Positions 6,917 to 40,790 of a DNA stretch of 64,000 nucleotides are shown here, piece by piece. How positions within the stretch are numbered: position 1 is the first letter of the stretch; the number at the start of each line of letters is the position of its first letter. Below the pieces are notes generated by a model. It was not told the DNA's origin, searched no databases, and worked only from the letters and a program-made list of their open reading frames with translations. A program made the translations under genes and the position numbers. The stretch covers positions 1 to 64,000 of the forward strand of contig NZ_LQAQ01000019.1 in the NCBI RefSeq assembly GCF_001583495.1, given 5' to 3'. This DNA is from Flammeovirga sp. SJP92. GTDB taxonomy: Bacteria; Bacteroidota; Bacteroidia; Cytophagales; Flammeovirgaceae.

Positions 6917-9900
6917 TTAGTTTTTAATAAACTTCTTTCGGGTCTTATCAATTTGAAGGATATAAATGCCTTTTTGGAAGGTTGAAATATCCAACGTTTC
7001 TAATGATTTTGAGACCTGAAATTCCTTTACTTTTCTACCGTCAATACTATAAATAGAGACGTATTTTTTATTTAGATTTAGACCTTGGATATACAATAAA
7101 TCGCTGGCCGGGTTAGGATATAATTTAAAATGTAATTGTGGTGCAATGGATGTTGGAGGCTCTTCTGTCTCCTTTTTGATCACCGTTAAGTCGAAAGTTT
7201 TAATCAATTCATCATCACCCATTTTCAAGATGGCTGTGACTAGAATATTTTCGTTTTGTTCTGATTGTTGGACAACACCTTCAGTGCCATTTACAGTAAT
7301 GATTGTATTGTCTGACGAAATCCATTCCACTTCTAAACCGTCACTTTCTGGTATCATAAAATTGATGTTTTGAGTGACAGACTGAGCACTGTCACTCTCT
7401 TGGAAAGTAATGTAAACGTCCTTTTCCAATGCTTTTAATTCACTAGACACATCCCCTTTCAGCTTAATAACAAATGTCTTGTGTCCTACCAAATGCTTGT
7501 ATTTTATTTCCGCATCTAATCTTACTGAACGTTCAATCTCTGGTGTAGTGATAAAACCTGAATCCCCTTCCACTTTCACAAAATCTTCCGCATAAGAGGT
7601 CCATGTTACGGTAGACTCATAGCTTGATTGTGTAGGGAGATAGATATTTTGAGTCACGCTATTTTTATGATCTCCATTTTGATACCCGATCACCGTGGCA
7701 TTGATGGCTTCTTGCAAGAAAAGGTTATCATCTAACGCTCCATCTACAGAAACAAAAACATCATCAATGTGAATAGTACCCACCACTTTACCTAACTGAA
7801 ATAACAAGCGGAGATTTGTCATTCCCTTTAAATTGGATGTGATTTCTCTTTCAATAGTGTAGAGGCTGTCTTTCTCAATCACAATCGCATCACTGTTGAT
7901 TTTATCTGCTCCTTTATCCAACTGCAACTGAAATCTAATCTCTGTATCTACATCGGAATAAACGGAAAATCTAACTATAAATTTCTGTGCTTCTGGAATT
8001 GAAAAACCAATGACATGATCCAAAGTCCTATACCCCAAATTAGAGAAATTACCGCCGTTGGCAGTGATATGGAAACCCGCTGATTTTGATGAAGTGACAG
8101 GATGCAGGTCATTTTGAAGTTGGTATTCAATCCCTAATCCATCTTTGACAGTCGTAATCCAACCTTCTTCCACACCGCTCTCAAAACTAGGGTTGGTCTT
8201 GATGATATTACCACTGATTTTCTCTTCATTTGTAGCATAATATTGATTCCACCACTGCTCTACATCCTGTTTGATTTGAGCTATCTTAATGCTATATCCT
8301 GCATTATTGATTTCATTTTTGGTCTCAAGAGCCTGGTTATTCGCGTAAGCATAAAACTCTTCATGAAAGGCAGTCACTTCTGAAAATGGAACGTTCAATG
8401 GCGTCATGTCTTTATCGTTAGTCCAAAGCGTATAACGCTCATTCCCTTTCTTAAATGAATAACCGTTTTTACCGTTCTTTTTATAGTAAGTCACTGCCAA
8501 GTCTAATGGATAAGCTCTTTCTTCCTCATCATTATGATACAGCGAATTGCCTTGTAAAAACGTTGGTTTTGGTAAGTAAGCGTAGTCACAAATGGTAGGA
8601 TAAAGGTCTATCAACTGCACCGCTCTTTCCGTTTCTTTTAATCGTTTTGAAGGATCAATGATGATCAATGGCACCTGTGCTGAATTCTGTAAAAGATTAT
8701 GTTTGCCCCACATATTATGATCTCCCAAGTTGAAACCATGATCAGAAGAAACGACAATCAAGGTATTCTCTTTCTCACCAATTGCTTCTAAATGATCGAC
8801 CAACATACCAATTTGAGCATCGATATAAGAAGCACAAGCATAATAAGCCGTCAGTAATTCCTTTTGTTTTTCAAGGTCCAATACCTTCTCTGCATCCTTA
8901 TAAATATCATCCCAAGTCTGAGGAATATCTTTGTACCCCAACAGTTCTGTAGGCTCTTTGTAAGCAATAATATCCGTTCCTTCTGGCAGTTTTTGATAGT
9001 CTGCTAAAGTGATTTCTTTGTCTTTGTATAAATCAAAATACTTTTGTGGAGCGATAAACGGCAAGTGTGGTTTCTTAAAACCTACTGACAAGAAAAACGG
9101 TTGTTCAGTGACCGAAAACTTGTTCATCATTCTGATGGCCTCCAATGTAAACTGACCATCTTGATAGCCATCATCCCCTACGCCTTCAGGTCCTTTTTCA
9201 TACGACATTCCTTCTTCCACTCTGTAATTGTTTCCCGATACAAAATCACCGTATTCTTCAGGGTATTCATAGTGGCTTGGGTCTTTATAATTTTCCGTCC
9301 ATGAGTTCGCATTATGACCATCATCCACATTTCTAGGATCAAAAACTTTTCCTACAGCACCTGTTCTATAGCCATTCAACGCTAAGAATTGAGGTAATGT
9401 CGTCAGGTTTGGAGCGGTGTCTTCTAGTTTTAATGTAAGGTTGGTAATGCCATTTCTTTCAGGGTAAGTTCCGGTTAAGAAACTTGCTCTTGAAGGACCA
9501 CAAACGGGATAAGAACATTGAGCATTAGCATACTGAATGCCTTGTTGTGATAGCTTATCAAAAGTAGGTGTGATCACTTCCTCATTCCCGAAGGCTGTAA
9601 GGTCGGTGTTCAAATCATCTACCATGATAAACAGGATATTTTTTCTTTTTGGTTTTGGAAATAAAGGTGCTAATTGTCCTTCTACCCAATCGCCTGCTTT
9701 ACGGTTATAAACGGTTTTATTGGCTTTTGGACCCGCACACCAAATGGCTCTAGGGATTTCTAATTCTTCCGCTAAAGAAACTACCGCTTGATGGTATTTT
9801 GCTCTACTCAATGGAGAACATAAGTTGTTGGAGCCAAATTCACCTAAGTACAATGGCAAGTTTAAATTGTCAGCCCATTGTTTTACGTTTTTAAAATCAG

Positions 9901-10669
9901 CTCTAAGGGATGCAAACTCTTGTTCTGTTCCCCAATCTGGAATACTGTTATTGGTTTCAGGGTATTTTGTAAATGTGTTGGGCCAGTAATAATGGAACCA
10001 AGGAATGAGTTTGTCGTCATTTTCAAAAAGGGCTGGATCCATTTGCTGAGGAGCAAAAATGGCATTATCACCACCTCCAACAACCATCAAAATACGATCA
10101 GGGTTATCCTTTCTTACTGTCTCTACTAATTCAACATTCAGCTGATCCACCAATCCTTTATTCATATTAAAGTAAGGCTCATTGATCAACTCAAATACTA
10201 ATTCATCATTACTTTTATCTTTAAAATGAGCACTGACCTGTGTCCAAATAGCTAGAAACCTCTCCCATTTTGCAGGATCAGTATAAACTTCATCTTCCTT
10301 TGTTACTTCCTCAATAAACCAGTGTTCACCATGTGCATTCAACACCACGATCAATCCTCTCTCCGTTGCCCAATCCACCACTTCTTCTACCCTCGTCAGC
10401 CATGCTTCATCAATGATATAAGGTGCCGTTTCAGTCGTATGACTTCCCCATCGAACGGGTAGACGTATATGATCAAAACCTGCATTGGCCACATCATCCA
10501 TCATAAATTCTGTAATGGGATCAGCCCAGTCTCCTTCATTTTTGGCGCTCATCACATTTCCAAAGTTATAGCCATTGCCTAGCTTTTTGGCCATGTCATG
10601 AGCGGGTGTTTGTGCTTGAAGTAATAAAGAGGAAAAGAATAAAATATAAAGTAGTATAATTTTTTTCAT
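6917..10669 (-). CDS. GH5 glycanase-sulfatase fusion with CBM-like, Ig-like and T9SS domains
   Basis: A 1,250-residue secreted bifunctional enzyme. After a signal peptide (1-20), residues ~25-335 form a GH5 barrel: Arg69, His113, acid/base Glu164 in LINEPY, His226, nucleophile Glu277 in LYLGEFG and Trp310. Residues ~340-800 are a complete S1 sulfatase with Asp351-Asp352, the formylglycine motif Cys390-Gly-Pro-Ser-Arg394 and Asp643-His644. The CGPSR form resembles iduronate-2-sulfatase-like S1_7 enzymes; the subfamily is not verified. Then follow a CBM-like jelly roll (~820-977), two Ig-like modules (~985-1165) and a T9SS sorting domain (~1176-1250, with LYPNPASD and GIYILQI). It should cut a beta-glycan and remove sulfate at the cell surface. 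All active-site residues of both halves are present. Its C-terminal modules resemble those of the next gene upstream, with which it probably forms a unit. Confidence 0.92.
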   Translation of the reverse strand: MKKIILLYILFFSSLLLQAQTPAHDMAKKLGNGYNFGNVMSAKNEGDWADPITEFMMDDVANAGFDHIRLPVRWGSHTTETAPYIIDEAWLTRVEEVVDWATERGLIVVLNAHGEHWFIEEVTKEDEVYTDPAKWERFLAIWTQVSAHFKDKSNDELVFELINEPYFNMNKGLVDQLNVELVETVRKDNPDRILMVVGGGDNAIFAPQQMDPALFENDDKLIPWFHYYWPNTFTKYPETNNSIPDWGTEQEFASLRADFKNVKQWADNLNLPLYLGEFGSNNLCSPLSRAKYHQAVVSLAEELEIPRAIWCAGPKANKTVYNRKAGDWVEGQLAPLFPKPKRKNILFIMVDDLNTDLTAFGNEEVITPTFDKLSQQGIQYANAQCSYPVCGPSRASFLTGTYPERNGITNLTLKLEDTAPNLTTLPQFLALNGYRTGAVGKVFDPRNVDDGHNANSWTENYKDPSHYEYPEEYGDFVSGNNYRVEEGMSYEKGPEGVGDDGYQDGQFTLEAIRMMNKFSVTEQPFFLSVGFKKPHLPFIAPQKYFDLYKDKEITLADYQKLPEGTDIIAYKEPTELLGYKDIPQTWDDIYKDAEKVLDLEKQKELLTAYYACASYIDAQIGMLVDHLEAIGEKENTLIVVSSDHGFNLGDHNMWGKHNLLQNSAQVPLIIIDPSKRLKETERAVQLIDLYPTICDYAYLPKPTFLQGNSLYHNDEEERAYPLDLAVTYYKKNGKNGYSFKKGNERYTLWTNDKDMTPLNVPFSEVTAFHEEFYAYANNQALETKNEINNAGYSIKIAQIKQDVEQWWNQYYATNEEKISGNIIKTNPSFESGVEEGWITTVKDGLGIEYQLQNDLHPVTSSKSAGFHITANGGNFSNLGYRTLDHVIGFSIPEAQKFIVRFSVYSDVDTEIRFQLQLDKGADKINSDAIVIEKDSLYTIEREITSNLKGMTNLRLLFQLGKVVGTIHIDDVFVSVDGALDDNLFLQEAINATVIGYQNGDHKNSVTQNIYLPTQSSYESTVTWTSYAEDFVKVEGDSGFITTPEIERSVRLDAEIKYKHLVGHKTFVIKLKGDVSSELKALEKDVYITFQESDSAQSVTQNINFMIPESDGLEVEWISSDNTIITVNGTEGVVQQSEQNENILVTAILKMGDDELIKTFDLTVIKKETEEPPTSIAPQLHFKLYPNPASDLLYIQGLNLNKKYVSIYSIDGRKVKEFQVSKSLETLDISTFQKGIYILQIDKTRKKFIKN

Positions 10670-10897: not shown

Positions 10898-13800
10898 TTA
10901 TTTTTTGATAAACAGCTTACTTTGAGTGTTCACCTTCACGATGTACTTACCGTTTGGCAATGACTGCACATTCAGTTTGTAACCGTTGGCTGTTTTCTCA
11001 GTTGTAAAGTTGTTTACCGCTCTGCCCAATAAGTCATACACTGCTATTTCTGCATCTCTCTGAGGAGTGGCAACAAACAAGTGATCTACTGTTGGGTTTG
11101 GATATACGCTTAAGATCAATTGATCATCTTCTACTGAAGTAGGGATATCCTTTTTAAGCACTACAATATCGAATACTTTTGTTTCCGACTGACCGTTCAA
11201 CGTTACTGTTGCTGTCAGTGCAATGCTTGTATTTTCCGAAGGTCTTACTACCTCACCAGAAGTTGAAACAACCGCCTCATCTGATGAAGCCCAAGTCACT
11301 GTAGTTTGGTGAAGCGAAGTGGTTGGTAGTACCATTGCTGAAGTTACATTTTCTGCATCATCACCCTCTGCGAAAGTAATTTCCAATGCTTCAGTTGCTT
11401 CTTTTAACTGTTGTGCTGTTTCATCACCTCCATTATCTTCTGTTTTGATGACTGTAAGGTCGAATGTTTTTGTTTGTGATTTTCCTTCTAAACTTAATGT
11501 CGCTGTAAGCGTTACCGTTGTATTTTCAGAAGGTCTGATCACTGTACCATTTGATGTAATTACTGCCTCATTTGAAGAAACCCATGTCACTGTTGTTTCA
11601 TGTAATGAAGACGCTGGTAATAAAATATTTTGTGTTACGCTTTCTGCATGATCACCTTCTGAATAACCAACACTTAATGCTACTGAAGCTTCCTGTAATA
11701 ATTCCTCCACAGGCTTTCCAGTATCTTCTTCTTTGATGACTGTTAAATCAAATGTTTTTGTACCTTCTTCACCAAGCAATGATAACGTTGCTGTCAATGT
11801 GATATTTTGATCTTCAGCACCTCTTACCACAACACCGTTTGATGATACAACTGCATCATTTGAAGAAGTCCATGTGATTGTTCCTCCAAATTCTGTTGTA
11901 GTTGGAAGAGTTACATCAGATGTCACAGTACTGCTTGTTTCACCTTCCGCATACGTTACTTCCACTGTTGCTAAAGCGTCTGTTAAGTAAGATCTTAAAG
12001 CCACTGTCAATGGGAATGCTACTGTCTCAGCGTATTCACCTTTAGCAATTGTTGCTGTCAATTTTACTGCTTGATCCGCAATTTGTTGTGTTACTACAGC
12101 CTGATCATTTTCTACTGTAATCGCTTCATGATCAGAAACCCAAGTGATGGTAGTAGCATGTCCTAAGTTGTCGGTTAAAGGAAGGGGAAAAGTAGTAGTC
12201 ACACTATCTTTTGTATCCTCCCCTTCTAACATTAGGCTTAAATCTACTGATGCTAACATCACATGTGCTTTGTCCGCAGGCATCTCTTTTATACTTACAT
12301 TATCGAATACAATCTCTCCCACATTGCCACCTACTTGAAGCAATAATCTATACGATTTTAGCCCTGCCGGTACTGCAATTAATGAAGTGTATTCTTTGCT
12401 TTCTGTTCCGAGTGTAAATGTTTCACCATTCGTTGATACATTTTTTCCTTCCTCATCATGTCCTTGAAGTTGGTATCTGATTTTAGCTCCTTCAAAGCCA
12501 TACGCTTCAGCACTGATTGTAATGTATCCTCCTTCCGAAGTCAATTCATTGAATGGATAAGTTTGTGTTCTGTACACTAGGTTTGGCAATGATACACCTC
12601 CATTTTCGATGTTCAATTTCACTGCTTTTGTACCATTAAAACCATGTGTTATGTGGTCCACAGTAAATACTACTGGAGGATCAAGACTTGCATTGAAGTT
12701 CGACTCCCATCCTACTAAGTCTTCTGCTTCAAAACCAGCATTCACAATGATCATATTACCTTCAGCGTCTGTATATTCTAATACTTTCACATTGAATTCT
12801 TTCGTCATCGACTCTTCTCCCAATGTTACCGTAGCCGTCAATACAACATCTGTAGGTTGTGCTCCTCTCACTACTTTTCCTTCTGTTGAAATTACCTCAG
12901 GGTGAGATGAAACCCATGTCACTGTTGTTCCATTGATTCCTTCAGCAGGTAAAGTCAATGGGTGTAAAATACCGTTTCCGTCTTGAGGATCTAAATAATG
13001 GAAAGCCACTTCTAATGCTTCTACAGCATCTTTCAAAGAAGTATCTTCTACTACCGTTACCTCAAATACTTTTTCTTCTTGGTATTCGCCTTTTGTAATA
13101 GTTGCTGTTAACTGTACATTTTGTGAACCTTCTGCAACTACCACTTCAGCAGTAGTTTCATTGATTACAATTGCAGGGTTATTTGATTCCCAAGTGATCG
13201 TTGTACCATAAGCCATTTCATCGGATTGAGGCAATGTAAAATTAGCCGTCACATTATCTTTCGTATCACCTTCTGCAAATACAAGATCTAATGCTTCTTT
13301 TGTGAATTTTACTTGAGCTACATCTGCATTGATTTCTTTCACAACCACATCATCAAAAACAATATTACCTGCAGCGTTTCCACCAATTTGAATCAACAAA
13401 CGAAGCGAAGAGATACCTGCCGGCATTTCCATCAACTGCACATAATCTGCTGTTGTTTCGTTGATTGTAAAGCTTTCCGAATTCACATTGACGTTTTTAT
13501 TCTCTGCATCTTTGCCTTGCAATTGATAACGAATTGTATTTTCAGCATCTGCATAAGCAGCAACTTTTACTTCAAAATATCTTTTGGCTGTTGATAAACC
13601 ATTGAAAGGATAATTGAATGAATTTCTAAATACAAGGTTTGAGAAAGAAACACCACCGTAATTGATTGTCATTTGTGCAGCGCCAGTGCCGTTATCCTTA
13701 TGCGTTACTTTGCTTAATGTATAATCGATTGGAGGATCTGATGATGCTAAAATTCCTACATTCCACCCGTCTAACTCATCTTGCTCAAAGTCTGCATTGA

Positions 13801-15982
13801 CTAAAATAATATTACCGTTTTCGTCTGCGAATGGTAAAACAACAGCATTAAATTCTTTTATATCTGACACATCACCTGAAGTGATTGTAGCGGTTAATGT
13901 TACGTTTTGAGCCGTTGCACCTCTATTTACATCACCTGTAATGCTGATTGCTTCTTCATCAGATGAAGCCCATGAGATTGTTGTACCATGCTTTCCTTCT
14001 GTTGACAATTCCACAATATCGAACATGATACCATTTCCATCCGAAGGATCTAAATAGAAGTATTTTACAAATAAAGCCGACTTCGCTTCCTGAACTTTCT
14101 CTTCTGCTGTGATTGCTAACACAGTAAGTTCAAAGGTCTTATCCAATGTCTCTTCACCGTCAATCGTCACTGTAGCTGTCAATGTGATATTTTGGTCTGT
14201 ATCTTTTCTATATACATTTCCTTCAGTATCAATCACGGTTTCATCTGTACTTGCCCAAGTTACTGTGGCATCGAAAGTGGAAGTGGAAGGCAGTGTAATA
14301 TTATTTTTTACAGTAGAAGCTGTCTCTGTTTCAGTATAAGTAATTTCAAGTGCATTTACTGATTTCTCTAAATCTGATAACGGTTTTATTACCCTTACAT
14401 CAAAAGTTTTTGTCACCGATGCACCTCCATTTGTAATAGTAGCCGTAAGTGTCACATTTTCTTCTCCAGCTACAGATTGAATTTCTGCAGTTCCTCCATT
14501 GATGACAATTGCATCTGTATTGTTAGATTCCCAAGAAATCACTGTTCCATAAGTGTCGTCTGTCAACGGTAATATTATATTCGATGTCACATTATTGGCA
14601 TCATCTCCTTCAGCAAAAATAAGTGCTAAGTCTTCTTTTACCATTTTCGCTTCCGCTTCATCCTTAGAGATTTCTTTGACCATAGCGTTATCCACTACAA
14701 CATTTCCAGTGTTTCTACCTACCTGAACAAAGAAACGGAACGAGCCAATACCTGCATCCATTTTTAAAATTGCGGTATAGTCTGTGGGTGTATCATTGAT
14801 ATAAAATTCTGTACTGTTCTTGTTGACAAAACTGCTAGAGGCATTTTTACCTTGTAACTGGTAACGTACTTTCTCTACGTCTCCATAGATATTGGAAGAC
14901 ACTTCATAATATTTTTCTTCCGTTGTAAAATCATTAAAAGGATACAAGAATGTTCTTAACACCAAGTTGGGAAGAGATACACCACCGCTAACAATATCAA
15001 AAGCTACAGCTGATGTTCCATTTTCTTTATGTGTTACAGACTGATATGTGAAGTCAATGGCTTGAGATGCATTAAAGTTAGTTTCCCAACCTGCATTCTC
15101 TCCTAAATCGAAATCAGCGTTGATCACAATTAAGTTGCCTTGAGCATCCATCATTGGCAATACATTTACTGTAAAGTCTTTTGTCAACGTTTCATCATTT
15201 AAAGAAATCGTTGCTTGCAATGTTACAGGAGTGGCAGAATTGGCTCTTTTGACTTCTCCAGTAGTACTGATCACATTTTCATCAGATGAAGTCCAAGCAA
15301 CTGTAGTTCCATTTACTCCTTCTGTTGGCAAAGTCACATCATATAAGATACCATTTCCGTCTTGTGGATCTAAACTATTGAAAGACAACTCCAAAACATC
15401 TTTGGCTTCTTGTACTGATTCCGCATCCGTTTTTGTGTTTTTGGGAGCAAAATAGACATTATCAAAATAGAAGTCACCAACGTTTTTTCCTACTTGAATC
15501 AACAAATACCACTTCTCTGCCCCAGCAGGAACTGTAATGGTTGTTTCAAAAGTCTGAACTGATTCAGTATTGTTGAATACCTCCGTTGTAATCTGAGATG
15601 GTCCATTATAATTCAACGCAAAACGAAAATTCTGCCCTGTTGTACCGTAAGCATCTACTTTACATACAAACTCTGTATCTTCTGCTAATGGAGATTCAAA
15701 GTTGGTATAACTTCCTGATTTTAATTGAATATTACTTCTGCTTAATCCTGCATTTTCAGGTGTGTCAGGAATTGCAATTTTGATAAAATAGTTTCCCTCT
15801 ATTTGTACTCTCTCAAAAGTGGGAGGGTTCGTCAAACCATTTTTCATTGTTAGGGTCCATTCGTTTGAGATAATTTCATCCTCAAACCCTGGGTTGGTTA
15901 TTAAATTGTCATTTGCAAATGCAGAGAGACACATCAGCCATGACAGGACAAAGGTTGTAAAAGTTAATTTCATATAATTCAT
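10898..15982 (-). CDS. Giant multi-CBM/Ig surface protein with T9SS domain
   Basis: A 1,694-residue exported protein with signal peptide (1-23) and a C-terminal T9SS sorting domain (~1618-1694; VYPNPTVD, GKYIVKV). Between them I count four CBM-like jelly rolls (~25-180, 281-438, 723-884, 1075-1234; each with NADFE- or NPGFE-type starts and RYQLQG cores in three of them) and ten Ig-like modules (~185-275, 445-533, 537-623, 629-716, 890-978, 983-1070, 1240-1327, 1332-1416, 1427-1514, 1523-1610), each with a TVTWxSSxExVI core and TLTATxxxGxxxxTKxFxxxV strand. No catalytic domain is recognisable. It likely holds or concentrates the target polysaccharide at the cell surface. It lies 228 bp upstream of the GH5-sulfatase gene on the same strand, and that enzyme carries the same kinds of module. 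An adhesin role is an alternative. Confidence 0.85.
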   Translation of the reverse strand: MNYMKLTFTTFVLSWLMCLSAFANDNLITNPGFEDEIISNEWTLTMKNGLTNPPTFERVQIEGNYFIKIAIPDTPENAGLSRSNIQLKSGSYTNFESPLAEDTEFVCKVDAYGTTGQNFRFALNYNGPSQITTEVFNNTESVQTFETTITVPAGAEKWYLLIQVGKNVGDFYFDNVYFAPKNTKTDAESVQEAKDVLELSFNSLDPQDGNGILYDVTLPTEGVNGTTVAWTSSDENVISTTGEVKRANSATPVTLQATISLNDETLTKDFTVNVLPMMDAQGNLIVINADFDLGENAGWETNFNASQAIDFTYQSVTHKENGTSAVAFDIVSGGVSLPNLVLRTFLYPFNDFTTEEKYYEVSSNIYGDVEKVRYQLQGKNASSSFVNKNSTEFYINDTPTDYTAILKMDAGIGSFRFFVQVGRNTGNVVVDNAMVKEISKDEAEAKMVKEDLALIFAEGDDANNVTSNIILPLTDDTYGTVISWESNNTDAIVINGGTAEIQSVAGEENVTLTATITNGGASVTKTFDVRVIKPLSDLEKSVNALEITYTETETASTVKNNITLPSTSTFDATVTWASTDETVIDTEGNVYRKDTDQNITLTATVTIDGEETLDKTFELTVLAITAEEKVQEAKSALFVKYFYLDPSDGNGIMFDIVELSTEGKHGTTISWASSDEEAISITGDVNRGATAQNVTLTATITSGDVSDIKEFNAVVLPFADENGNIILVNADFEQDELDGWNVGILASSDPPIDYTLSKVTHKDNGTGAAQMTINYGGVSFSNLVFRNSFNYPFNGLSTAKRYFEVKVAAYADAENTIRYQLQGKDAENKNVNVNSESFTINETTADYVQLMEMPAGISSLRLLIQIGGNAAGNIVFDDVVVKEINADVAQVKFTKEALDLVFAEGDTKDNVTANFTLPQSDEMAYGTTITWESNNPAIVINETTAEVVVAEGSQNVQLTATITKGEYQEEKVFEVTVVEDTSLKDAVEALEVAFHYLDPQDGNGILHPLTLPAEGINGTTVTWVSSHPEVISTEGKVVRGAQPTDVVLTATVTLGEESMTKEFNVKVLEYTDAEGNMIIVNAGFEAEDLVGWESNFNASLDPPVVFTVDHITHGFNGTKAVKLNIENGGVSLPNLVYRTQTYPFNELTSEGGYITISAEAYGFEGAKIRYQLQGHDEEGKNVSTNGETFTLGTESKEYTSLIAVPAGLKSYRLLLQVGGNVGEIVFDNVSIKEMPADKAHVMLASVDLSLMLEGEDTKDSVTTTFPLPLTDNLGHATTITWVSDHEAITVENDQAVVTQQIADQAVKLTATIAKGEYAETVAFPLTVALRSYLTDALATVEVTYAEGETSSTVTSDVTLPTTTEFGGTITWTSSNDAVVSSNGVVVRGAEDQNITLTATLSLLGEEGTKTFDLTVIKEEDTGKPVEELLQEASVALSVGYSEGDHAESVTQNILLPASSLHETTVTWVSSNEAVITSNGTVIRPSENTTVTLTATLSLEGKSQTKTFDLTVIKTEDNGGDETAQQLKEATEALEITFAEGDDAENVTSAMVLPTTSLHQTTVTWASSDEAVVSTSGEVVRPSENTSIALTATVTLNGQSETKVFDIVVLKKDIPTSVEDDQLILSVYPNPTVDHLFVATPQRDAEIAVYDLLGRAVNNFTTEKTANGYKLNVQSLPNGKYIVKVNTQSKLFIKK

Positions 15983-17818: not shown

Positions 17819-17819
17819 T

Positions 17820-26600: not shown

Positions 26601-26610
26601 ATCAATTCTT

Positions 26611-30941: not shown

Positions 30942-32759
30942 ATGAAACAACTTATATATTTCGCATTCATAAGCCTGTTTTTCATGATCATAGGTTGTGA
31001 AAAGCAAGACCCTCTCAGAACCATAGAAACAGAGTATTTAGATTCTGTACACTATGATGCTAGTGTTTTCTATCCATTAGAAGATATGATTTCTCCCGAA
31101 CCTGTTTTTGAAAACAAATACGGCGTTTCTTTTGCCATCGAAGAGTTTTATAATGACAAAGGAGACAGCTCGCAGATCAATAATGTAGCTATTGATAAGA
31201 AAACAGGTATTATCAGCGTAAGAGATGCTTCTCTTTTAGATCAAGAAGCAACGTATCACGCCAACATTGCCACTTTTACGGTAAGTGGAAAAACGGTACA
31301 TGAAAAAGCTTGGTCAATGGGTATTACTCAAGTGACAGGCGAACTGTTTTACTCTACTCCTCAGCCTTCATATGAAAGAAATTTCGAAGGTGAAGTGCTT
31401 CATTTAGACAGTGCCTTCTTTGGAGAAGCGAATGCTGTTGTATCTTATGAATTAGTCAATTCAGACAAAGGACTTTCTATTGATGCTTCAAATGGACATA
31501 TCTCTAAAGTAAGTTTTATGGAAGCTGGAGAATATGATGTTGCTGTAAAAGTATTGACAGAAGGTGGTGAAACTACATTAACGGAAGTGGCTAAAGTAAA
31601 AATCTACGGTGCTCCTGAATTAGTATATCAGCCTAATTTCTTTAAAATTCAAGGAGATTACAGCATTCAAGCGACGCCAACCGTGAAAGAATTCTTAGAC
31701 GGTGCTACTTATGAACTGAAAGTACAAGGCGATCTGACATTGAACAGTCTTGCAATTGATGAAAATGCAGTTATTACTTTACCAGAAAACCACAACAATG
31801 CTGTGGGTGAGTATAAGGTAGATATAATTGCAACAGTAGACGGTCAGGCTTTTACTTTTGAAGAGGCAATTACAATTGAAATTGTAGCTCAAATCAACCC
31901 TGAAATCTCCTATGCAGAAAACAAAGTAACGCTTTCTCCTTGGACGGGCTATACTTTCACTCCAGAGTTGTATTCTCTTCCTAGAAATGCAGTAGTGACA
32001 CTGACTACAGTATTGCCAGAAGGCATGACTTTCGATCCTGAAACGGGATCTATTACAATTGCGGAAGAGCAAAACTTTGCAGATGCCACTTATACTATTG
32101 ACATCAATGTCAACACGCCAAGCCACGGTGATACGCCATTGACTGCACTGACGCAAATCGTTATTGAAACAAAAGCACAAATTCTTTTGGAAGATGATAT
32201 GACAAGTGATGTATTGAAAACGGATTATATCCGTCAGCAAGTAGTGATCAATGATGATGAAAGAAGTGGCGCAAGCTGGAACACTACAGCTTCAAGAGAA
32301 TATTGTAGAGCACAAGCCAATATCTGGTCGGGTGACTATACAAGATGGTCTTATATCGCGGTAAGTTATACGGTAGATAATATCCGTAGAGCCACTGTTT
32401 CTTTTGACAACGGTGTAAACAAAGACTTAAGAGATACTGATGAATACACTGAAAATTACTTCTCTGTCAACTACAATGCAGATTATAATGGCAGTGAAGC
32501 TATTCATGATTTCGCTTGGGAGAAAGATAGCAATGCCAATATTTCAAGAGTAGGAACTGATATTGACAACGGGCCTTATGAAGCCTCTGGTCTTTTAGAA
32601 ATTGATGCTAAATACCTTGTCAACAACAAAGTGAATATTGCTTGGTTGGCACATAAGGATATGACTGAAATTCCTGAAAGTTTCAAAACGGGTCATACAT
32701 TCGGCTTCAACAACATTGTTGTTACGGCATATACAAAGTATGATGCAGTGGTAGAGTAA
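30942..32759 (+). CDS. Putative surface glycan-binding lipoprotein of the PUL
   Basis: A 605-residue lipoprotein with lipobox MIIGC (Cys19). The body is beta-rich, with several repeated Ig/cadherin-like segments (for example the LPEGMTFDPETGSITI motif typical of bacterial Ig-fold repeats) and a C-terminal domain of ~200 residues rich in Trp, Tyr and Asp, which may bind sugar. No catalytic motif is seen. Genes in this place, straight after susCD and an enzyme, usually encode surface glycan-binding proteins (SGBPs) that hold the polysaccharide at the SusCD complex. The link rests on context, architecture and lipid anchor. It is the last gene of the susC operon, which ends in an inverted-repeat element. 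Confidence 0.7.
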   Translation: MKQLIYFAFISLFFMIIGCEKQDPLRTIETEYLDSVHYDASVFYPLEDMISPEPVFENKYGVSFAIEEFYNDKGDSSQINNVAIDKKTGIISVRDASLLDQEATYHANIATFTVSGKTVHEKAWSMGITQVTGELFYSTPQPSYERNFEGEVLHLDSAFFGEANAVVSYELVNSDKGLSIDASNGHISKVSFMEAGEYDVAVKVLTEGGETTLTEVAKVKIYGAPELVYQPNFFKIQGDYSIQATPTVKEFLDGATYELKVQGDLTLNSLAIDENAVITLPENHNNAVGEYKVDIIATVDGQAFTFEEAITIEIVAQINPEISYAENKVTLSPWTGYTFTPELYSLPRNAVVTLTTVLPEGMTFDPETGSITIAEEQNFADATYTIDINVNTPSHGDTPLTALTQIVIETKAQILLEDDMTSDVLKTDYIRQQVVINDDERSGASWNTTASREYCRAQANIWSGDYTRWSYIAVSYTVDNIRRATVSFDNGVNKDLRDTDEYTENYFSVNYNADYNGSEAIHDFAWEKDSNANISRVGTDIDNGPYEASGLLEIDAKYLVNNKVNIAWLAHKDMTEIPESFKTGHTFGFNNIVVTAYTKYDAVVE

Positions 32760-33046: not shown

Positions 33047-36000
33047 ATGAATTTGAAGAGAATATTACTTACATTTTTTATCCTTTTTATCAATACTTTC
33101 ATTGCTTTTGCACAATGGGATGAGAACTTGCTTTTTGACAATTATAATGTTCAAGACGGTCTAAGTAGTCATATTGTCTATGATATTGCCAATGATCAAG
33201 ATGATTTCACATGGGTTATTACTCCTAACGGAATTCAACGTTTCGATGGAAAAAACTTTAAAAACTATACCATTAAAAACCCTGCCGGTGATGACATTAT
33301 TTTCTATAAACACAATTCAGGGCTGTACATTGACCAAGTCAAAAAACTATGGGTCTTTTGTCAATTTGGGCTGTACACTTACAATCCTGAAATTGATTCT
33401 TTTGAGCCTTTTGAAATCACAGACATCAATAACAAAAGAGCTTATACTTCTATCATAGAACATAATGGCTATTACTACTTTCTTTCTTGGCAAATGCTAG
33501 TAAGATGGAACCCTAAAAAAAATGCCTTCAAAAAAATATTCCTGAAAAAGAGAATTACAGCCACCACTCCATACGGTACACAAGGGCTTTTGATTGCGAG
33601 TCCTAACGGTCTTCAAATCATTAAAAGAGGGGAAGCAAAAGAATTTCAATTGTATGGTATCAATCTAAAAGGCGCAGGTATTACATGTCTTTACAAAAGC
33701 TCTGACAATGCCGTTTGGGTAGGTACTTACAACAAAGGTATTTACTTGATTAAAGACAATAAAATCCAGCATATCAAGAAAAATGTAGACTATAAAATCA
33801 GCAAGTTTAGTACTTATAAAAATAAGATTATTGCAGGTACGGACGGACATGGTATTATGGTGTTTGATCATGATGGACATGAAGTCAGCGGTACGAATCT
33901 AAAAGCCATTAATGGACTGCCAATTAATAGTCTGACCGTGGATCAGCATCAAAGATTATGGATTGCCACTTATGGAAAAGGGCTTTTCCTCCACAACCCT
34001 CACAAACCTTATTTAAGAAAAATCAATACCGATCCCGATCCCAACATGATTGCGGATCATGGCTACAGTTCTTTTAAAGATTCTAAGAAAAGAATCCTTT
34101 TAGGCACCAATAAAGGGATGGTTATCAAAGATAAAAACGGGAAGAAAAGGTATCTTAGACCCAATCATTTCATCAAGACATTTGACCGTAATGAAAGTTT
34201 TGTCGTCAATAATATTGTAGAAGATAGACATCACAACTTCTGGGTGTCGAGTTATGGTTTTGGTCTGTTTTACTTGGATGGCAAAAACTTCAAAGTGCTG
34301 AAATCCATCAAGAATTTCCAAGTGGGAGAACAGCACTACAATTGTAAATTTATCCTTCAGCTGGAGTTATACGGAGATAAATTGTGGTTTAGACTGGTGA
34401 AAGGAACTGTATTCGGTATGAATATCATTGATCAGCAGTTTAGCAAACATCCACTGAGCAGTACATCGTATATTTATTACAGTCCACAGCAAGGAAAAAT
34501 GTATGCGGCCAATCATGAAGGAATTTATGAAATAGACCAAGAAAAGCCGAAACAAATCATCAAATCACCCAACCTTTCTGTCAGTGCAATTATGCCGATC
34601 GATGATAAGAGTTTTATGTTGGGAACGGAATCAAAAGGTGTGCTGATTTTTGATGTGGTGAAAAAGAAAATCTCTCCTATTCAAGATAATCAGAGAAACC
34701 TACTGCCAAGACGAATCAAACAGATCTTGAAAACGGATTTGAATAAGTATGTGATCATTGGTGACAACGGGCTATTCACTTTCCATTACAACAAAGGAAA
34801 AATATCGGATATCCACGAACCGCTTCAGAAGTTTGAATCTCACCAAGGAGCATCCATTTTGAATAACAACAATATTATTCTGGGTTCATATGATGGTTTT
34901 TACCAATTTCCACTTCACTTTGAAGAAAACATTACTACTGCTCCAAAAATCACGTTCAATCACCTTACCGTTGATGGTAAAGATATCACAGCACTTAATT
35001 CCAAAATGCTGGACAAGGACATCAACCTTGTTGAAGAAGTAGTACTCAATCACCCCGACCGTGGTTTTTCACTCAATATCATTTCTCCAGAATACAGAGA
35101 CGATCCTAACTTTTTCAGCTGGAAACTGGAAGGTTATGAAGACAATTATAGCAAAAAAAGTACGCTTCAAGAGATCAATTATCAAAACCTCCCTTATGGA
35201 AGTTATGAGCTAAAAATCAAAATGTATTCTGGTAGAAACACCAGAGAGGAAGTAGCACGAAGTTTAATCATTTCGGTAGCACCTCCTATCTGGGCCACTA
35301 CATGGGCCAAAGTTTTATATACAATTGGTGTGCTGATCTTACTTTGGTTGATTTACAAATCGTATGCTGATTATATCCAACAAAAACATTTACAAGCTAG
35401 AAATACGGTTTTTGCTGAGATTGCCCATGAACTGAGAACACCGCTGACATTAATACAAGGTCCGCTTCAAAAGCTGGAAGAAGATACAGATTTAGATGCT
35501 TCAGCCACTCGACTAATTGGTATGATCCGTAGCAATCTCACAAGGCTGAATAAGCGTATCACACAATTATTGGATTACGAGCGCATCAATCAAGTCAATG
35601 AAGAATTGGTTGTCAAAGAGTTTGATATTGTTCACCTCATCAAAGTGCTGATCCGTGACTTCGATCCATTATTACAGAAGAAAAACATTGAAGTACAAAT
35701 TGATTCTTCCAAAGAGAAAATCATGGTAGAATTAGATTTTGATAAAATGGAGAAAATCATCTATAATTTAGTATCCAATGCTATCAAATATTCTAAGGAA
35801 AATGATAAGATCTTTATTGACATCAAAAAAGTAGAAGATCAAATCAAGTTCTCTATCACTGATCATGGTTTAGGAATTCCGAAAGGCAATCAAAAACACA
35901 TTTTCAAACGTTTCTACAGAGCTGAAAATGTAATTAAGAATAAGAAAATTGGAAGTGGAATTGGTTTGGTACTTTCTTACAAGTACACTTCCATGATGCA

Positions 36001-36916
36001 CGGTAAACTCTTCTTTGAAAGTGAAGAGAACAAACAAACCACTTTCTTCTTAGAGCTTCCACTGAAAGTGAAAGGCATGCGAAATGATGCCGTTCCTCAA
36101 GAAATATCACATTATGGTGATGAGTTTGTGGAGAAGGACAAAGAGAAATACGATTATAGAATTGCGGTAGCGGAAGATAATGAAGAGTTGAGAGCATTTA
36201 TCAAAACTTCACTTTCTGACAGTTTTGAAGTCGAGGTCTTTGAAAATGGCAAGGAATGTTTTGACGCTCTACTAGAAAACGATTTCCATCTAGTACTATC
36301 AGATGTGATGATGCCTGTGATGAACGGTTATGAACTTTGCAATCAAATCAAAAGCAATGTAGCTACCTCCCACCTTCCGATCATTATGTTGACGGCACTT
36401 AACGCCTCTATGTACAAAGCGGAAGGTTATATGCACGGTGCAGACCACTATGTCATCAAACCTTTTGACATCAGAATGCTGAAATATAGAATCATCAGTC
36501 TGATTGAAAATAGAAAGGCACTAAGTCAGTTGTACAGAAAGCAAATTCATGAGGATGAACCTGTCAAAGTACAGCCTGTAGTAGAAGAAACAATTGACAG
36601 TAAATTCCTCACCGAATTCAAACAGTTAATTGAAACCAACTTAACAGACTCCAATTACAATGTCTCTGAAATCTGTAAAGACATTGGGATGAGTAGGCCC
36701 GTTTTATATCGAAAAATTAAGGCACTCACCGATCTTTCACCTAAAGAATACATCCAAACCAAACGTCTCAATCACGCCAAGAAGATGTTGATGGAATCTG
36801 ATGAGAGTATCAGTACAATTGCCTATGAAAGCGGTTATTCTGATCCAAAATATTTCTCTACTGTGTTTAAGAAACAGTTTGGAGAAAGTCCAAGTGAGTT
36901 TAAGCAACATTGTTAA
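33047..36916 (+). CDS. Hybrid two-component system regulator (HTCS) of the PUL
   Basis: A 1,289-residue one-protein signalling system. Signal peptide 1-23; periplasmic sensor of beta-propeller repeats (~30-650) and a Y_Y_Y domain (~680-745); one membrane helix (~753-775). Then a histidine kinase with phosphoacceptor His794 in FAEIAHELRTPL, N-box NAIKYSKEN and G-boxes DHGLGIPKG and GSGIGLVLSYKY; a receiver domain with Asp1086 in LSDVMMPVMNGYE; and a C-terminal AraC-type HTH (~1185-1289). HTCS proteins bind an oligosaccharide in the periplasm and switch on the neighbouring PUL. All catalytic residues are present. It follows the SusCD operon on the same strand with a 287-bp gap. Confidence 0.95.
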   Translation: MNLKRILLTFFILFINTFIAFAQWDENLLFDNYNVQDGLSSHIVYDIANDQDDFTWVITPNGIQRFDGKNFKNYTIKNPAGDDIIFYKHNSGLYIDQVKKLWVFCQFGLYTYNPEIDSFEPFEITDINNKRAYTSIIEHNGYYYFLSWQMLVRWNPKKNAFKKIFLKKRITATTPYGTQGLLIASPNGLQIIKRGEAKEFQLYGINLKGAGITCLYKSSDNAVWVGTYNKGIYLIKDNKIQHIKKNVDYKISKFSTYKNKIIAGTDGHGIMVFDHDGHEVSGTNLKAINGLPINSLTVDQHQRLWIATYGKGLFLHNPHKPYLRKINTDPDPNMIADHGYSSFKDSKKRILLGTNKGMVIKDKNGKKRYLRPNHFIKTFDRNESFVVNNIVEDRHHNFWVSSYGFGLFYLDGKNFKVLKSIKNFQVGEQHYNCKFILQLELYGDKLWFRLVKGTVFGMNIIDQQFSKHPLSSTSYIYYSPQQGKMYAANHEGIYEIDQEKPKQIIKSPNLSVSAIMPIDDKSFMLGTESKGVLIFDVVKKKISPIQDNQRNLLPRRIKQILKTDLNKYVIIGDNGLFTFHYNKGKISDIHEPLQKFESHQGASILNNNNIILGSYDGFYQFPLHFEENITTAPKITFNHLTVDGKDITALNSKMLDKDINLVEEVVLNHPDRGFSLNIISPEYRDDPNFFSWKLEGYEDNYSKKSTLQEINYQNLPYGSYELKIKMYSGRNTREEVARSLIISVAPPIWATTWAKVLYTIGVLILLWLIYKSYADYIQQKHLQARNTVFAEIAHELRTPLTLIQGPLQKLEEDTDLDASATRLIGMIRSNLTRLNKRITQLLDYERINQVNEELVVKEFDIVHLIKVLIRDFDPLLQKKNIEVQIDSSKEKIMVELDFDKMEKIIYNLVSNAIKYSKENDKIFIDIKKVEDQIKFSITDHGLGIPKGNQKHIFKRFYRAENVIKNKKIGSGIGLVLSYKYTSMMHGKLFFESEENKQTTFFLELPLKVKGMRNDAVPQEISHYGDEFVEKDKEKYDYRIAVAEDNEELRAFIKTSLSDSFEVEVFENGKECFDALLENDFHLVLSDVMMPVMNGYELCNQIKSNVATSHLPIIMLTALNASMYKAEGYMHGADHYVIKPFDIRMLKYRIISLIENRKALSQLYRKQIHEDEPVKVQPVVEETIDSKFLTEFKQLIETNLTDSNYNVSEICKDIGMSRPVLYRKIKALTDLSPKEYIQTKRLNHAKKMLMESDESISTIAYESGYSDPKYFSTVFKKQFGESPSEFKQHC

Positions 36917-36922
36917 TATAAA

Positions 36923-36956: not shown

Positions 36957-37177
36957 CCATTTTAGAATGAAATTCATTTAATTGTTATTTGTAAATAAAA
37001 ATCCTAATTTTGAGACTCATACCAATTAAGTATTACATACTTTTTTGACAGAAATCTTTGATTTAAACTTTTTTTGCAAACTTATTTTTAATACAGATAG
37101 AAGTGTGTATCACTAAGCATTCTATTCAATTTACTTTGAAACACACTTTATTTATTCAATCTTTAAAATCGACTATT

Positions 37178-38380
37178 ATGCTACTGAAAAACAAACTGTG
37201 GATGAGTTATCTAATCGTTATCTCTTTATCATTTTTTATATATAGCTGTACTACAGAGGAAATAACACCTTCTGATAGTCAGGAGGAAGTTGACGATTCA
37301 ACAGATGAAACGGAAAAACCTTCCAATGAAGTTGTTGATAAAGAAATCAGCCTGGGAAATGGACAAGTGTTCAATATGAAATACTTTATGATTTCTATTA
37401 ATCAGATTTTATTTAACCCTTCTGAAAGAAAAAGAATGTTTATGACACATGACATCGATAAAGAAGGTATAATCAATCAATCATTTTGGAATTTTTCATA
37501 TGTTGGTTCTTTCGGGAATAGAGTTGTTACGATGCAACATTCCTTAGACTCTAAAGATGTAATTAACAGCTCTACAATTGAAATTTATGACACTCAGATT
37601 ACCTATGAATATATCTATGACGAAAAAGGACTAATCAGTTCAATGAATGAAAGTGCATTTGGTATTCTTGTGAATCGTTACAACTATGAATATAATGAGA
37701 AGAATCAGTTGATGAAAAAGCAAAATATTAATAATAACGTTACTTACTCATTTGTATATAATACAGATGGTAAAATTATTAGTTTAACTGAAGAGTTTGA
37801 ATCCATTTTCACCACTTATAATTACAGTTACGATGCTCAAGGGTATTTACTTTCTGAAAAATCGAATTGGAACTATAAAAGAGATTATAAATACGATAAT
37901 CAAGGACGAATTTCTGAAAGTTTAGGAGGAACAAGTGCTGAATATCTTAGTAAATATGAATACACAGATAATCAACTGACACTAAAAATATACCCACCAG
38001 AAAATAGCACAAACATTTACATTAGAAAAGACGAAGTATATATGGATAAGATTACTAATCTTAAATACTTTGTTTACTATTATGAAGAATTTGCAATTAA
38101 AGGTCTATTAAATACTAAAAACAAAATAGATGAAAGGCAATATTTTACAAATAACAATTTTGATTTGAAACTTGTTGGTAATAGTAAAGTTGACTCTAGA
38201 TACAGGGATGGATATGGACATAAAAAGCAAGAATCATTTTATAATACAAAGGGAGATAAAATATATGTGATCACTTATACAGAAGAAGGAGAATTTACTT
38301 ATTACAAAGGTGATGGAACGACTAAGATCTCTAAAAGTGATATTACAGAACAATGGGTGCTAGAATTATTAAATCACTAA
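37178..38380 (+). CDS. Lipoprotein with YD-like repeats, unknown function
   Basis: Start set at ATG 37178 (MLLKNKLWMSY); the frame is open 25 codons upstream. The 400-residue protein has a lipoprotein signal with IYSC (Cys24 by this start), a Glu/Asp/Ser/Thr-rich linker (~28-50) and then about six short repeats of the form Y-x-Y-D/N-E/Q-x-G-x-I/L (YIYDEKGLIS, YEYNEKNQLM, FVYNTDGKII, YSYDAQGYLL, YKYDNQGRIS). These resemble RHS/YD repeats but the copies are few and no toxin domain is present. It is probably an outer-membrane-anchored protein. It lies between the regulator and a GH3 gene. It may belong to the PUL, but nothing in it points to sugars, and its base composition (very AT-rich) differs from the PUL genes. 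Confidence 0.6.
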   Translation: MLLKNKLWMSYLIVISLSFFIYSCTTEEITPSDSQEEVDDSTDETEKPSNEVVDKEISLGNGQVFNMKYFMISINQILFNPSERKRMFMTHDIDKEGIINQSFWNFSYVGSFGNRVVTMQHSLDSKDVINSSTIEIYDTQITYEYIYDEKGLISSMNESAFGILVNRYNYEYNEKNQLMKKQNINNNVTYSFVYNTDGKIISLTEEFESIFTTYNYSYDAQGYLLSEKSNWNYKRDYKYDNQGRISESLGGTSAEYLSKYEYTDNQLTLKIYPPENSTNIYIRKDEVYMDKITNLKYFVYYYEEFAIKGLLNTKNKIDERQYFTNNNFDLKLVGNSKVDSRYRDGYGHKKQESFYNTKGDKIYVITYTEEGEFTYYKGDGTTKISKSDITEQWVLELLNH

Positions 38381-38420
38381 TCAATTAATCTTGATCATTA
38401 TAAAAAAATATTACTTCCTT

Positions 38421-38457
38421 AAAACATCTTAATTCCGGTTAAGATGTTTTTTTATTT
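38421..38457 (+). terminator. Rho-independent terminator
   Basis: Stem AAACATCTTAA / TTAAGATGTTT with a TTCCGG loop and a following T-run, 41 bp after the lipoprotein stop. Confidence 0.85.
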
Positions 38458-38582
38458 AAAAGTTCTTTTTGCAAACGGTTTCATGTTAATAAAAAATAGA
38501 AAAGTTACCCAAAATTTTAAAGATAGAGGCAAGTAAACGAAATTGAAAGAGACAATTAACTACAACCCTGAATGAATGAATT

Positions 38583-40790
38583 ATGAACAGACGATCTTTC
38601 TTAATTTTAATTTTAAATGTATTTACTGTAACCTCACTAACATTTGCACAACACCCTTGGTCCGATACTTCTCTCCCGATGGAGGAAAGAGTGGATTTAT
38701 TGGTGAAAGAAATGACACTAGAGGAGAAAATTGGGCAGCTTGGAAATGCTGCTCCGGCCATTGAAAGACTTGACCTTCCAGAATACAACTGGTGGAATGA
38801 AGCGTTACATGGTGTTGCAAGAAACGGTAGAGCTACTATTTTCCCACAGGCTATCGGTATGGCCGCTACTTTCGATAAGGAATTGATATATGATGTTGCT
38901 TCAGCAATTGGCAAGGAAGCAAGAGCGAAATATCAGATCTCGCAATCTATCGGCAATCGTACCATGTATTCAGGGCTTACGTTCTGGACTCCGAATGTCA
39001 ATATTTTCAGAGATCCAAGATGGGGACGTGGGCAGGAAACGTATGGTGAAGATCCTTATTTGACCTCTCAAATTGGTATTCAATTCGTGAAAGGTCTTCA
39101 AGGTAACGACCCTAAGTATCTTCAAGCTTCTGCATGTGCCAAACACTATGCTGTCCACTCAGGACCTGAAGCTTTAAGACATGAATTTGATGTTACCGTT
39201 TCTAAGCAAGACCTTTATGAAACCTACCTTCCTGCTTTTAAAGCATTGGTAACTGAAGCAGATGTAGAATCCGTTATGGGTGCTTACAACAGAGTGTACG
39301 GAGATCCTGCCTGTGGAAGTGATTTGTTATTGAATCAGATCTTAAGAAATGACTGGGGATTTGATGGACACGTTGTTTCTGACTGTGGTGCTATTGAAGA
39401 TTTCTTTAAGTATCATAAAACGTCCAAAGGACCAAAAGAAGCAGCCGCTTTAGCGTTGAAAATGGGTACAAACTTGAACTGTGGATGGGTTTATCAGGCT
39501 CATTTGAAAGGTGCTATTGAAGATGGTTTAGTAGACGAAAGTATGGTGGATCAGCGTTTGAAGGAATTGATGATGACTCGTTTCAAATTAGGTTTCTTTG
39601 ACCCTGCCAATATGAACCCTTTCAATAATGTAGATGAATCAGTAATTGAAAGTAAAGAACACCAACAATTGTCTTATAACACGGCAGTAAAATCATTAGT
39701 TTTACTGAAAAACAAAAACAATGTTTTGCCTCTTAACAAGGACATTAGAAACTTATATGTGTTGGGTCCTAATGCCGCTTCAACTGAGGTTCTTTTAGGA
39801 AATTACTACGGATTAGCGGCAAATACTGTATCGATTTTAGATGGTATTGTGGGTAATGTAAGCAAGGGAACAACGATTGAATACAAACAAGGTATTTTGC
39901 TGGATGAACCGAATAAGAACCCTATTGACTGGGCTACTGGAGCTGCAAGAAGTGCTGATGCTTGTATTGCAGTTATGGGTATTTCTCCATTGTTAGAAGG
40001 TGAAGAAGGTGAGGCTATTGCTTCAACAACAAAAGGAGATAGAATTGCGTTAGGTTTACCTCAAAACCAAATTGATTTCTTGAAGAAAATTAAGAAGGAC
40101 AGTAAGAAACCTCTGATCTTAGTGCTTACTGGAGGTTCTCCAATTGTGATGCCTGAAGTAGAGGAAATTGCTGATGCTATATTATTTGCTTGGTATCCTG
40201 GTCAAATGGGTGGTCAAGCGGTAGGTGATGTATTGTTCGGAAAGGTGTCTCCTTCTGGAAAACTGCCGATCACTTTCCCTCAATCTTTGGAGCAACTTCC
40301 TGCTTATGAAGATTACACAATGAAAGGAAGAACGTATAGATACATGACTGAACAACCTCTTTTCCCATTCGGGTATGGTCAGACTTATACCTCTTTTGAG
40401 ATTGAAAGTTTAACAGCTTCTGTTGAAAAGGTAAAAGCGAATGAAAATGTTGAATTGGAGGTAAAAGTAAAAAATACAGGAAGTTTTGATGCTGAAGATG
40501 TAATTCAAATCTATTTGACAGATTACAATGCTGATTTTGAAACTCCTGTGCAATCATTGAAAAAATTTGAAAGAGTGATATTGAAAGCCGGTGAGACAAA
40601 AACACTCACGTTTACGCTTACACCTGAGGATCGTTCTGTATTTAACAATGAAGGTCAATTAATACAATCTTCTAACACAGTAAAAGTAATTGCAGCTGAT
40701 GCTTCTCCAGGAGCAAGAAGTGAAGAATTAGGTTATGCCAAGAAGGAATTGGTATTGAAAATTAAAGGTGGTGGAAAAGTAGTACAATAA
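38583..40790 (+). CDS. GH3 glycosidase of beta-xylosidase type
   Basis: A 735-residue enzyme with signal peptide (1-22). Motifs EYNWWNEALHGVAR near residue 70 and VVSDCGAIEDF with nucleophile Asp267 are characteristic of the GH3 beta-xylosidase group, in contrast to the SDW form of the other GH3 gene here. The second domain and a C-terminal Fn3-like domain are complete. It would release xylose or a similar pentose from the non-reducing end of oligosaccharides in the periplasm, matching the GH10 domain encoded at 28159. It is a single-gene unit with terminators on both sides. The tail EELGYAKKELVLKIKG is normal for the family, and no domain is missing. Substrate is inferred from motif, not tested. 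Confidence 0.92.
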   Translation: MNRRSFLILILNVFTVTSLTFAQHPWSDTSLPMEERVDLLVKEMTLEEKIGQLGNAAPAIERLDLPEYNWWNEALHGVARNGRATIFPQAIGMAATFDKELIYDVASAIGKEARAKYQISQSIGNRTMYSGLTFWTPNVNIFRDPRWGRGQETYGEDPYLTSQIGIQFVKGLQGNDPKYLQASACAKHYAVHSGPEALRHEFDVTVSKQDLYETYLPAFKALVTEADVESVMGAYNRVYGDPACGSDLLLNQILRNDWGFDGHVVSDCGAIEDFFKYHKTSKGPKEAAALALKMGTNLNCGWVYQAHLKGAIEDGLVDESMVDQRLKELMMTRFKLGFFDPANMNPFNNVDESVIESKEHQQLSYNTAVKSLVLLKNKNNVLPLNKDIRNLYVLGPNAASTEVLLGNYYGLAANTVSILDGIVGNVSKGTTIEYKQGILLDEPNKNPIDWATGAARSADACIAVMGISPLLEGEEGEAIASTTKGDRIALGLPQNQIDFLKKIKKDSKKPLILVLTGGSPIVMPEVEEIADAILFAWYPGQMGGQAVGDVLFGKVSPSGKLPITFPQSLEQLPAYEDYTMKGRTYRYMTEQPLFPFGYGQTYTSFEIESLTASVEKVKANENVELEVKVKNTGSFDAEDVIQIYLTDYNADFETPVQSLKKFERVILKAGETKTLTFTLTPEDRSVFNNEGQLIQSSNTVKVIAADASPGARSEELGYAKKELVLKIKGGGKVVQ

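Follow-up and report, generated by a model that had tools for sequence, protein, structure and literature searches.

The passages of Krüger et al. (2019; PMC6794258) on bloom bacteria predict a "sulfated xylan" type of polysaccharide utilization locus (PUL). Pattern 1 of this type comprises a glycoside hydrolase of family 10 (GH10) with a sulfatase domain, a GH3 and two further sulfatases. According to the same paper, predicted sulfated-xylan PULs are one of four substrate classes to which, taken together, most PULs of North Sea bloom Bacteroidetes belong. PUL136 of Formosa sp. Hel3_A1_48, which carries a SusCD pair, is named a sulfated beta-xylan PUL on prediction in the relevant passages of Kappelmann et al. 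(PMC6298971). The locus described here occupies positions 6917-36916 of the window, i.e. bases 1-64000 (64,000 nucleotides) of contig NZ_LQAQ01000019.1 of Flammeovirga sp. SJP92, genome size 8.49 Mb. It is a SusCD-type PUL with four sulfatase domains, two of them within fusion proteins. It has the sulfatase-domain GH10, the GH3 and the two further sulfatases of pattern 1, and a SusCD pair as in PUL136; the tie to both is by gene pattern, not by sequence, as far as the cited passages describe them. Flammeovirga differs in a GH5 fused to a sulfatase and in a large protein of carbohydrate-binding modules (CBM) and aBig_2 repeats. The gene pattern as such is already known from the predicted PUL type of bloom bacteria. 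New here, judging from phylogenetic trees, are fusions that pair sulfatases of one clade with GH10s of two lineages, with the corresponding genes separate in related loci.

The fusion protein of the locus (28159..30930, + strand) consists of an S1 sulfatase (residues ~22-510) joined to a divergent GH10 (~540-880), as assigned by Pfam, PDB searches and trees. In a tree of 58 GH10 domains, the fused domains of Flammeovirga and Persicobacter stand in the 7d88-like half, and the fused flavobacterial domains group with unfused flavobacterial neighbours in the other half; the fused GH10s of Flammeovirga and of the flavobacteria belong to different lineages. The label of the first half is taken from the PDB search, 7d88 itself being outside the tree. 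One clade for all fused GH10s is rejected by the approximately unbiased test (p 0.0001; 0.012 with the fusions of family f129 added; 0.015 with long rows removed). The PDB search with the Flammeovirga domain gives 7d88 at 132 bits, the near-identical 7d89 at 128 and the next structure at 45; with a flavobacterial domain 5ay7 is first and 7d88 is not among the best 60 of 76 matches. The beta-xylanase 7d88, nearest solved relative of the Flammeovirga domain, is not fused to a sulfatase and has been studied on plain xylans and cellulosic substrates. Evidence for the split into two lineages is good but not final, because the branches are long. Domains shorter than ~250 residues and near-identical copies were dropped from the tree, later also three long rows and then three more. 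The constrained sets were completed after the first tree, the unfused neighbours having been named beforehand, one Flammeovirga GH10 and the f129 rows afterwards; a p of 1e-60 was set aside, its constrained set having omitted two nested f129 rows.

The sulfatase parts of the Flammeovirga/Persicobacter and flavobacterial fusions form one clade in two trees (support 100/99). It also contains two sulfatases of 637-638 amino acids (L125, L126) and one of 523 amino acids (L105); the f129 fusion lies outside. A clade of the fused sulfatases alone is rejected (p 0.0027; 0.0014 with f129) because L125, L126 and L105 nest inside, which complicates the reading of the fusions; without L105 and f129 the value is p 0.050. 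One clade of the fused sulfatases, L125, L126, L105 and the f129 fusions is not rejected (p 0.157). The Pfam scan of the L125 sulfatase is without GH10, and a GH10-like frame adjoins L125 and L126 each on the opposite strand. Both trees were built under the simpler LG+G4 model, after removal of rows below 220 bits or 400 residues and of near-copies.

Homologues outside the genus were counted in samples of 194 genomes of the order, 295 of the class and 349 of family f56, presumed to be Flavobacteriaceae; all counts are lower bounds, only two or three candidates having been scored per genome. In f56 the fusion protein is matched by 76 of the 349 genomes at E 1e-70. Intact fused frames, 860-887 amino acids long, are present in six, a count that leaves out two longer frames with internal stops (G860, G1050). 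A PF00331 match lies within the frame in all six, five of which were Pfam-scanned whole. The surrounding stretches hold GH3 homologues (55-62% identity) in four, GH5 in four, BD-FAE in two and a SASA esterase in one. A full-length plain orthologue was considered for the flavobacterial fusion and rejected: the sulfatase parts share a clade, the GH10 parts do not. One contig stretch with a flavobacterial fusion also encodes a 7d88-like GH10 of 596 amino acids (G1036, L117 8661-10448).

Five other f56 genomes encode the homologous sulfatase on its own, as a separate gene. In G394, G918 and G862 the same locus also has two separate GH10 genes, one of the flavobacterial lineage and one 7d88-like; in G905 and G805 the 7d88-like GH10 is present, the other kind being a short frame in G805 and undetected in G905. 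GH3 is found in four of the five unfused loci, GH5 in two and BD-FAE in one. SusC of Flammeovirga is 42-49% identical to those of 11 homologous loci vs 29-31% to two other SusCs, its conserved GH3 (20586-22997) is 54-62% identical in eight flavobacterial loci, and its GH5 domain 30-36% in the six homologous stretches tested. A flavobacterial PUL GH5, used as query, has its best match in the Flammeovirga genome in the GH5 of 6917-10669 (153 vs 134 bits). Family f129, another family of the same order with genomes of 1.0-1.6 Mb (54-93% complete), has a sulfatase-CBM-CBM-GH10 fusion. It is seen as sulfatase-CBM4_9-CBM4_9-GH10 in G1137 (L171 11417-14944, - strand), where the domains were Pfam-scanned, and in G1228 (L172 8204-11785, + strand), where the GH10 is 85% identical.

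In the class sample the fusion protein is matched in at least 13 of 295 genomes at E 1e-40, own genome included; the frames listed are 473-563 amino acids long, apart from the fusions of the own genome and a 913-amino-acid frame of G085. Used as a profile, the GH10 part has matches at E 1e-40 in 2 of 395 genomes of the phylum sample; in the class sample 13 of 395 genomes match at E 1e-8, the own genome being counted in both; the fused GH10 in its Flammeovirga form is therefore rare in those samples. The G085 frame was rejected as a further GH10 fusion, being a sulfatase with PF05426. At L060 7697-10342 (- strand) this S1 sulfatase is joined to the PF05426 alginate-lyase-like domain, and a TonB receptor, a GH88 and a SASA esterase occur in the stretch.

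From one sulfatase clade, two GH10 lineages and unfused versions in related loci it follows that the coupling of sulfatase and GH10 probably arose, or swapped its partner, more than once. On the simplest reading a sulfatase and different GH10s, which already worked together in one locus, would have fused on more than one occasion; alternatively, a single fusion would have been followed by an exchange of its GH10 part.

The fused GH10 scores 82 bits with PF00331 (gathering score 22.1) and keeps both catalytic glutamates, WDVLNEP and TEFEI aligning with NE and TELD/SELD of the two canonical GH10s of the same genome (L001, L002). Its subsite motifs are RGHALVWEK, QSR and NEN, vs GHTLVWHSQ/GHALIWHAA, QxH and NDY in L001/L002, the latter taken here to be canonical xylanase features. 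QxR is found in all five Flammeovirga/Persicobacter rows shown and QxH in the other 18. The flavobacterial fused GH10s have R-x-HGP(I/V)SPQA, QxH and NQ, with the glutamates kept. The changes may suit a sulfated chain. Both canonical GH10s are encoded on contig C63, with ~12 kb between them; plain xylan is therefore probably handled there and probably not by the PUL. Tentatively, and at somewhat less than an even chance, the sulfatase-GH10 is proposed as a desulfate-then-cut enzyme for a sulfated backbone, assembled at least two times from one sulfatase clade and unlike GH10 lineages, its GH10s remodelled away from plain-xylan cleavage, in Flammeovirga/Persicobacter by Arg in place of the His of QxH.

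Upstream of the fusion, on the - strand, lie six genes. The first (6917..10669) encodes in a single protein a GH5 (residues ~19-325), an S1 sulfatase (~340-740), a CBM4/9-like module, aBig_2 repeats and a type IX secretion system (T9SS) tail; the nearest solved structures are 4u3a for the GH5 and 6hhm for the sulfatase, and the GH5 scores 153 bits with PF00150 and has both catalytic glutamate motifs, LINEP and LGEFG. The second (10898..15982) encodes a protein of 1694 amino acids with four CBM4/9-like modules, ten aBig_2 stretches and a T9SS tail. No catalytic domain is found in it by Pfam scan, and a role in glycan binding or as a scaffold is probable from its domains; the CBM calls depend on weak Pfam scores, CBM_4_9 being weak in four of the five modules scanned (best E 2.7e-4). 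Two S1 sulfatases follow, one with a CGASR motif and 6hhm as closest solved structure (16409..17845), the other with a CLPSR motif and closest to 9fo1, named k-carrageenan sulfatase S1_16 (17820..19232). A BD-FAE/alpha-beta hydrolase esterase, accessory (19502..20431), has a weak NCBIfam match to acetylxylan esterase AxeA1 (72.9 bits vs cut-off 700). The sixth is the conserved GH3 exo-glycosidase with an SDW motif (20586..22997). On the + strand are the SusC TonB-dependent transporter (23436..26600; TIGR04056 849 bits, above cut-off), the SusD glycan-binding lipoprotein (26587..28155), the sulfatase-GH10, a lipoprotein resembling surface glycan-binding proteins (SGBP; 30942..32759) and the hybrid two-component system regulator (HTCS; 33047..36916). 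The SGBP-like lipoprotein has Ig-like matches below threshold only; its Persicobacter homologue matches the SGBP_BT4661-like PF16319 (34.8 bits, cut-off 28.8). Neighbouring SusC and SusD, with co-located glycan-active enzymes and a regulator, agree with the definition of a PUL.

All genes claimed by the sequence-only reading are present as open reading frames, and the named enzymes, SusC, SusD and HTCS exceed their Pfam gathering scores; the lipoproteins 30942-32759 and 37103-38380 have Pfam matches only below cut-off. That reading set the PUL at 6917-40790 with five sulfatase domains, listed GH5, GH10 and sulfatases with no mention of fusions, and overlooked the 1694-amino-acid T9SS-tailed protein. 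The PUL is real, with the conserved cluster ending at 36916; the enzymes are there, two of the sulfatases being fused to glycosidases in single proteins. All five sulfatase domains have PF00884 with the formylglycine motif C-x-(P/A)-x-R, and four belong to the PUL. The fifth (956..2560, + strand, at the contig end) was rejected as a member: its orthologue in Flammeovirga genome G300 (89%) stands between a different HTCS and a different SusCD pair (L128) and it is therefore assigned to a neighbouring PUL. Beyond the HTCS lie, on the + strand, an edge gene for a lipoprotein judged by eye to be RHS-repeat-like (37103..38380), present in two of eight congener loci, and a peripheral GH3 with an SDC motif (SDCGAI), beta-xylosidase-like by motif and NCBIfam (38583..40790). 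Outside the PUL, 47043-49196 of the window encodes an FG-GAP repeat protein with a T9SS tail and a weak lambda-carrageenase propeller match below cut-off.

Of the five sulfatase domains, three have 6hhm as their closest solved structure, and the remaining two have 9fo1 and 6ust. A match to 6hr5, by its title the sulfatase of a sulfatase-glycosidase protein (alpha-L-rhamnosidase/sulfatase, GH78), is also seen for three of the sulfatases; 6hr5 differs in its GH78 partner and in each case scores below 6hhm. Presumably 6hhm belongs to S1_7 and 6hr5 comes from a Formosa ulvan PUL; neither point is used as evidence.

The GH5-sulfatase, aBig protein, both sulfatases, GH3, SusC, SusD, sulfatase-GH10, lipoprotein and HTCS are held by all eight congeners, the GH5-sulfatase being on a separate contig in G300 and G301 and the aBig protein match ~40% and partial in five more distant ones. 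The esterase is absent from one of the eight loci (G296), where identity is 82% for the aBig protein and 96-100% for the other conserved genes that were matched. The sulfatase-GH10 fusion is present in 9/9 Flammeovirga genomes, own included, and its GH10 matches contigs of named Flammeovirga (OC4, EKP202, aprica, pacifica) at 66-99% identity, which makes a strain near F. aprica probable. The GH3 of 38583-40790 was rejected as a core gene: an SDC-type GH3 follows the HTCS in just two of eight congeners (G300, G301). G296 has one at 94% identity on another contig, so that adjacency is not judgeable; among the remaining congeners, three carry copies of <=61% elsewhere, and in the other two no copy is matched at E 1e-150. 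Full-length matches to the GH5-sulfatase are confined to the genus among the 194 genomes of the order, with three candidates scored per genome. Flammeovirga genome G295 has a second GH5-sulfatase copy and, adjoining an S1 sulfatase, one more GH10, which is of the flavobacterial lineage, so that both GH10 lineages occur within ~30 kb (L050 15878-18802, L051).

Persicobacter sp. JZB09 has a syntenic copy on a 632-kb megaplasmid (CP012861). Shared are SusC (62% identity), SusD (52%), sulfatase-GH10 (58%), lipoprotein, HTCS (41%), GH3 (72%), esterase (52%) and both sulfatases (56% and 63%); it differs in two extra sulfatases, and the GH5-sulfatase and aBig protein have no match in the 42.6 kb read. 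A reverse-transcriptase gene close to the edge of this PUL (L085 3556-4605) may hint at mobility; the plasmid is typed as non-mobilizable in PLSDB.

That the genes form one system for a sulfated glycan, as the sequence-only reading held, is well supported, because of their conservation and the homologous loci; the glycan is probably beta-1,4-linked. A xylan backbone is plausible and is weaker than that reading claimed, because the SDC-type GH3 lies at the periphery, the conserved GH3 is ambiguous in its assignment and the active site of the fused GH10 is altered. The degradation had further been called little described, which is half right: no report proving the substrate of predicted sulfated-xylan PULs and no biochemical proof was found in the literature searches made, and the pattern itself is published as a predicted type in the cited passages (PMC6794258). 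With slightly better than even probability, the substrate of the Flammeovirga PUL is an algal hemicellulose that is sulfated and beta-1,4-linked, with sulfated xylan or a xylose-rich glycan as the likeliest. From the genes, domains, motifs and conservation above, localisation and order of action may be proposed as follows. Outside the cell, the T9SS-exported GH5-sulfatase and 1694-amino-acid multi-CBM protein would attach to the polymer and open it up; sulfated oligosaccharides would then be captured and imported by the SGBP-like lipoprotein and SusCD. The sulfatase-GH10 would remove a sulfate blocking the backbone and then cleave the backbone. The other two sulfatases, together with the esterase and the GH3, would complete desulfation, deacylation and exo-cleavage, and the HTCS would sense an oligosaccharide and turn the locus on. 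A xylose isomerase above cut-off in the genome and proteins of the formylglycine-generating enzyme family, which is a broad one, are no more than consistent with this proposal.

Several observations weigh against sulfated xylan. Among the Pfam-scanned frames of the cluster there is no GH43, GH67 or GH115; the active-site motifs of the fused GH10 are altered relative to canonical GH10s; the conserved GH3 scores alike on the NCBIfam beta-xylosidase (579.6 bits) and exo-1,3/1,6-glucosidase (579.1 bits) models, both far below cut-off; and the closest solved relatives of the GH10 and of the GH5 reportedly cleave cellulose as well as xylan. The substrate could therefore also be a sulfated beta-glucan such as sulfated mixed-linkage glucan, on which GH5 and GH10 would be endoglucanases and the conserved GH3 would act as a beta-glucosidase, though this is unlikely. 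The GH5 relative 4u3a is a cellulase/xylanase in the passages of PMC12099637, which list its GH5 subfamily as unknown; the conserved GH3 has the SDW motif and matches glucosidase models as well as those for xylosidase; and sulfated mixed-linkage glucan occurs in the red alga Kappaphycus (passages of PMC5460208). XynA of Bacillus KW1 cuts xylans, carboxymethylcellulose (CMC), Avicel, filter paper and cellobiose (passages of PMC6408826), and one paper ties it to 7d88, the source of which is given as Bacillus KW1 in the text consulted of PMC13288935 and as B. safensis in that of PMC9221164. However, BsXyn10, 89% identical to 7d88, is inactive on CMC and Avicel (same text of PMC9221164), and no cellulase activity is listed for rXynAHJ14, which shares 88% identity with XynA (same passages of PMC6408826). 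The best solved relative of the conserved GH3, 7zb3 at 532 bits, is moreover named a beta-xylosidase, and the predictions in the literature are for xylose-rich substrates.

A xylose-containing heteroglycan such as sulfated xyloglucan, with xylose as just one constituent, is a still fainter prospect. Sulfated xyloglucans are listed among the likely substrates of beta-xylose PULs in the passages of Kappelmann et al. (PMC6298971), and several sulfatases with GH5, GH10 and GH3 suit a complex polymer, but no fucosidase, rhamnosidase or alpha-xylosidase family is found among the cluster's Pfam-scanned frames. The form originally put forward, sulfated xylan with the GH10 as a normal endo-xylanase and the SDC-type GH3 as terminal xylosidase, is improbable: a GH10 and a xylosidase-like GH3 are present, but this GH3 is peripheral, and the GH10 has a long branch in the tree and motifs that depart from those of the two canonical GH10s of the genome.

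The locus also occurs in named Flammeovirga species, and the question of a sulfated xylan or xylose-rich substrate becomes testable with one or two purified proteins. The repeated joining of sulfatase and GH10 points to two activities that need to work together. Should the fused proteins desulfate and then cut, their GH10s would represent new functional GH10 classes acting on sulfated chains.

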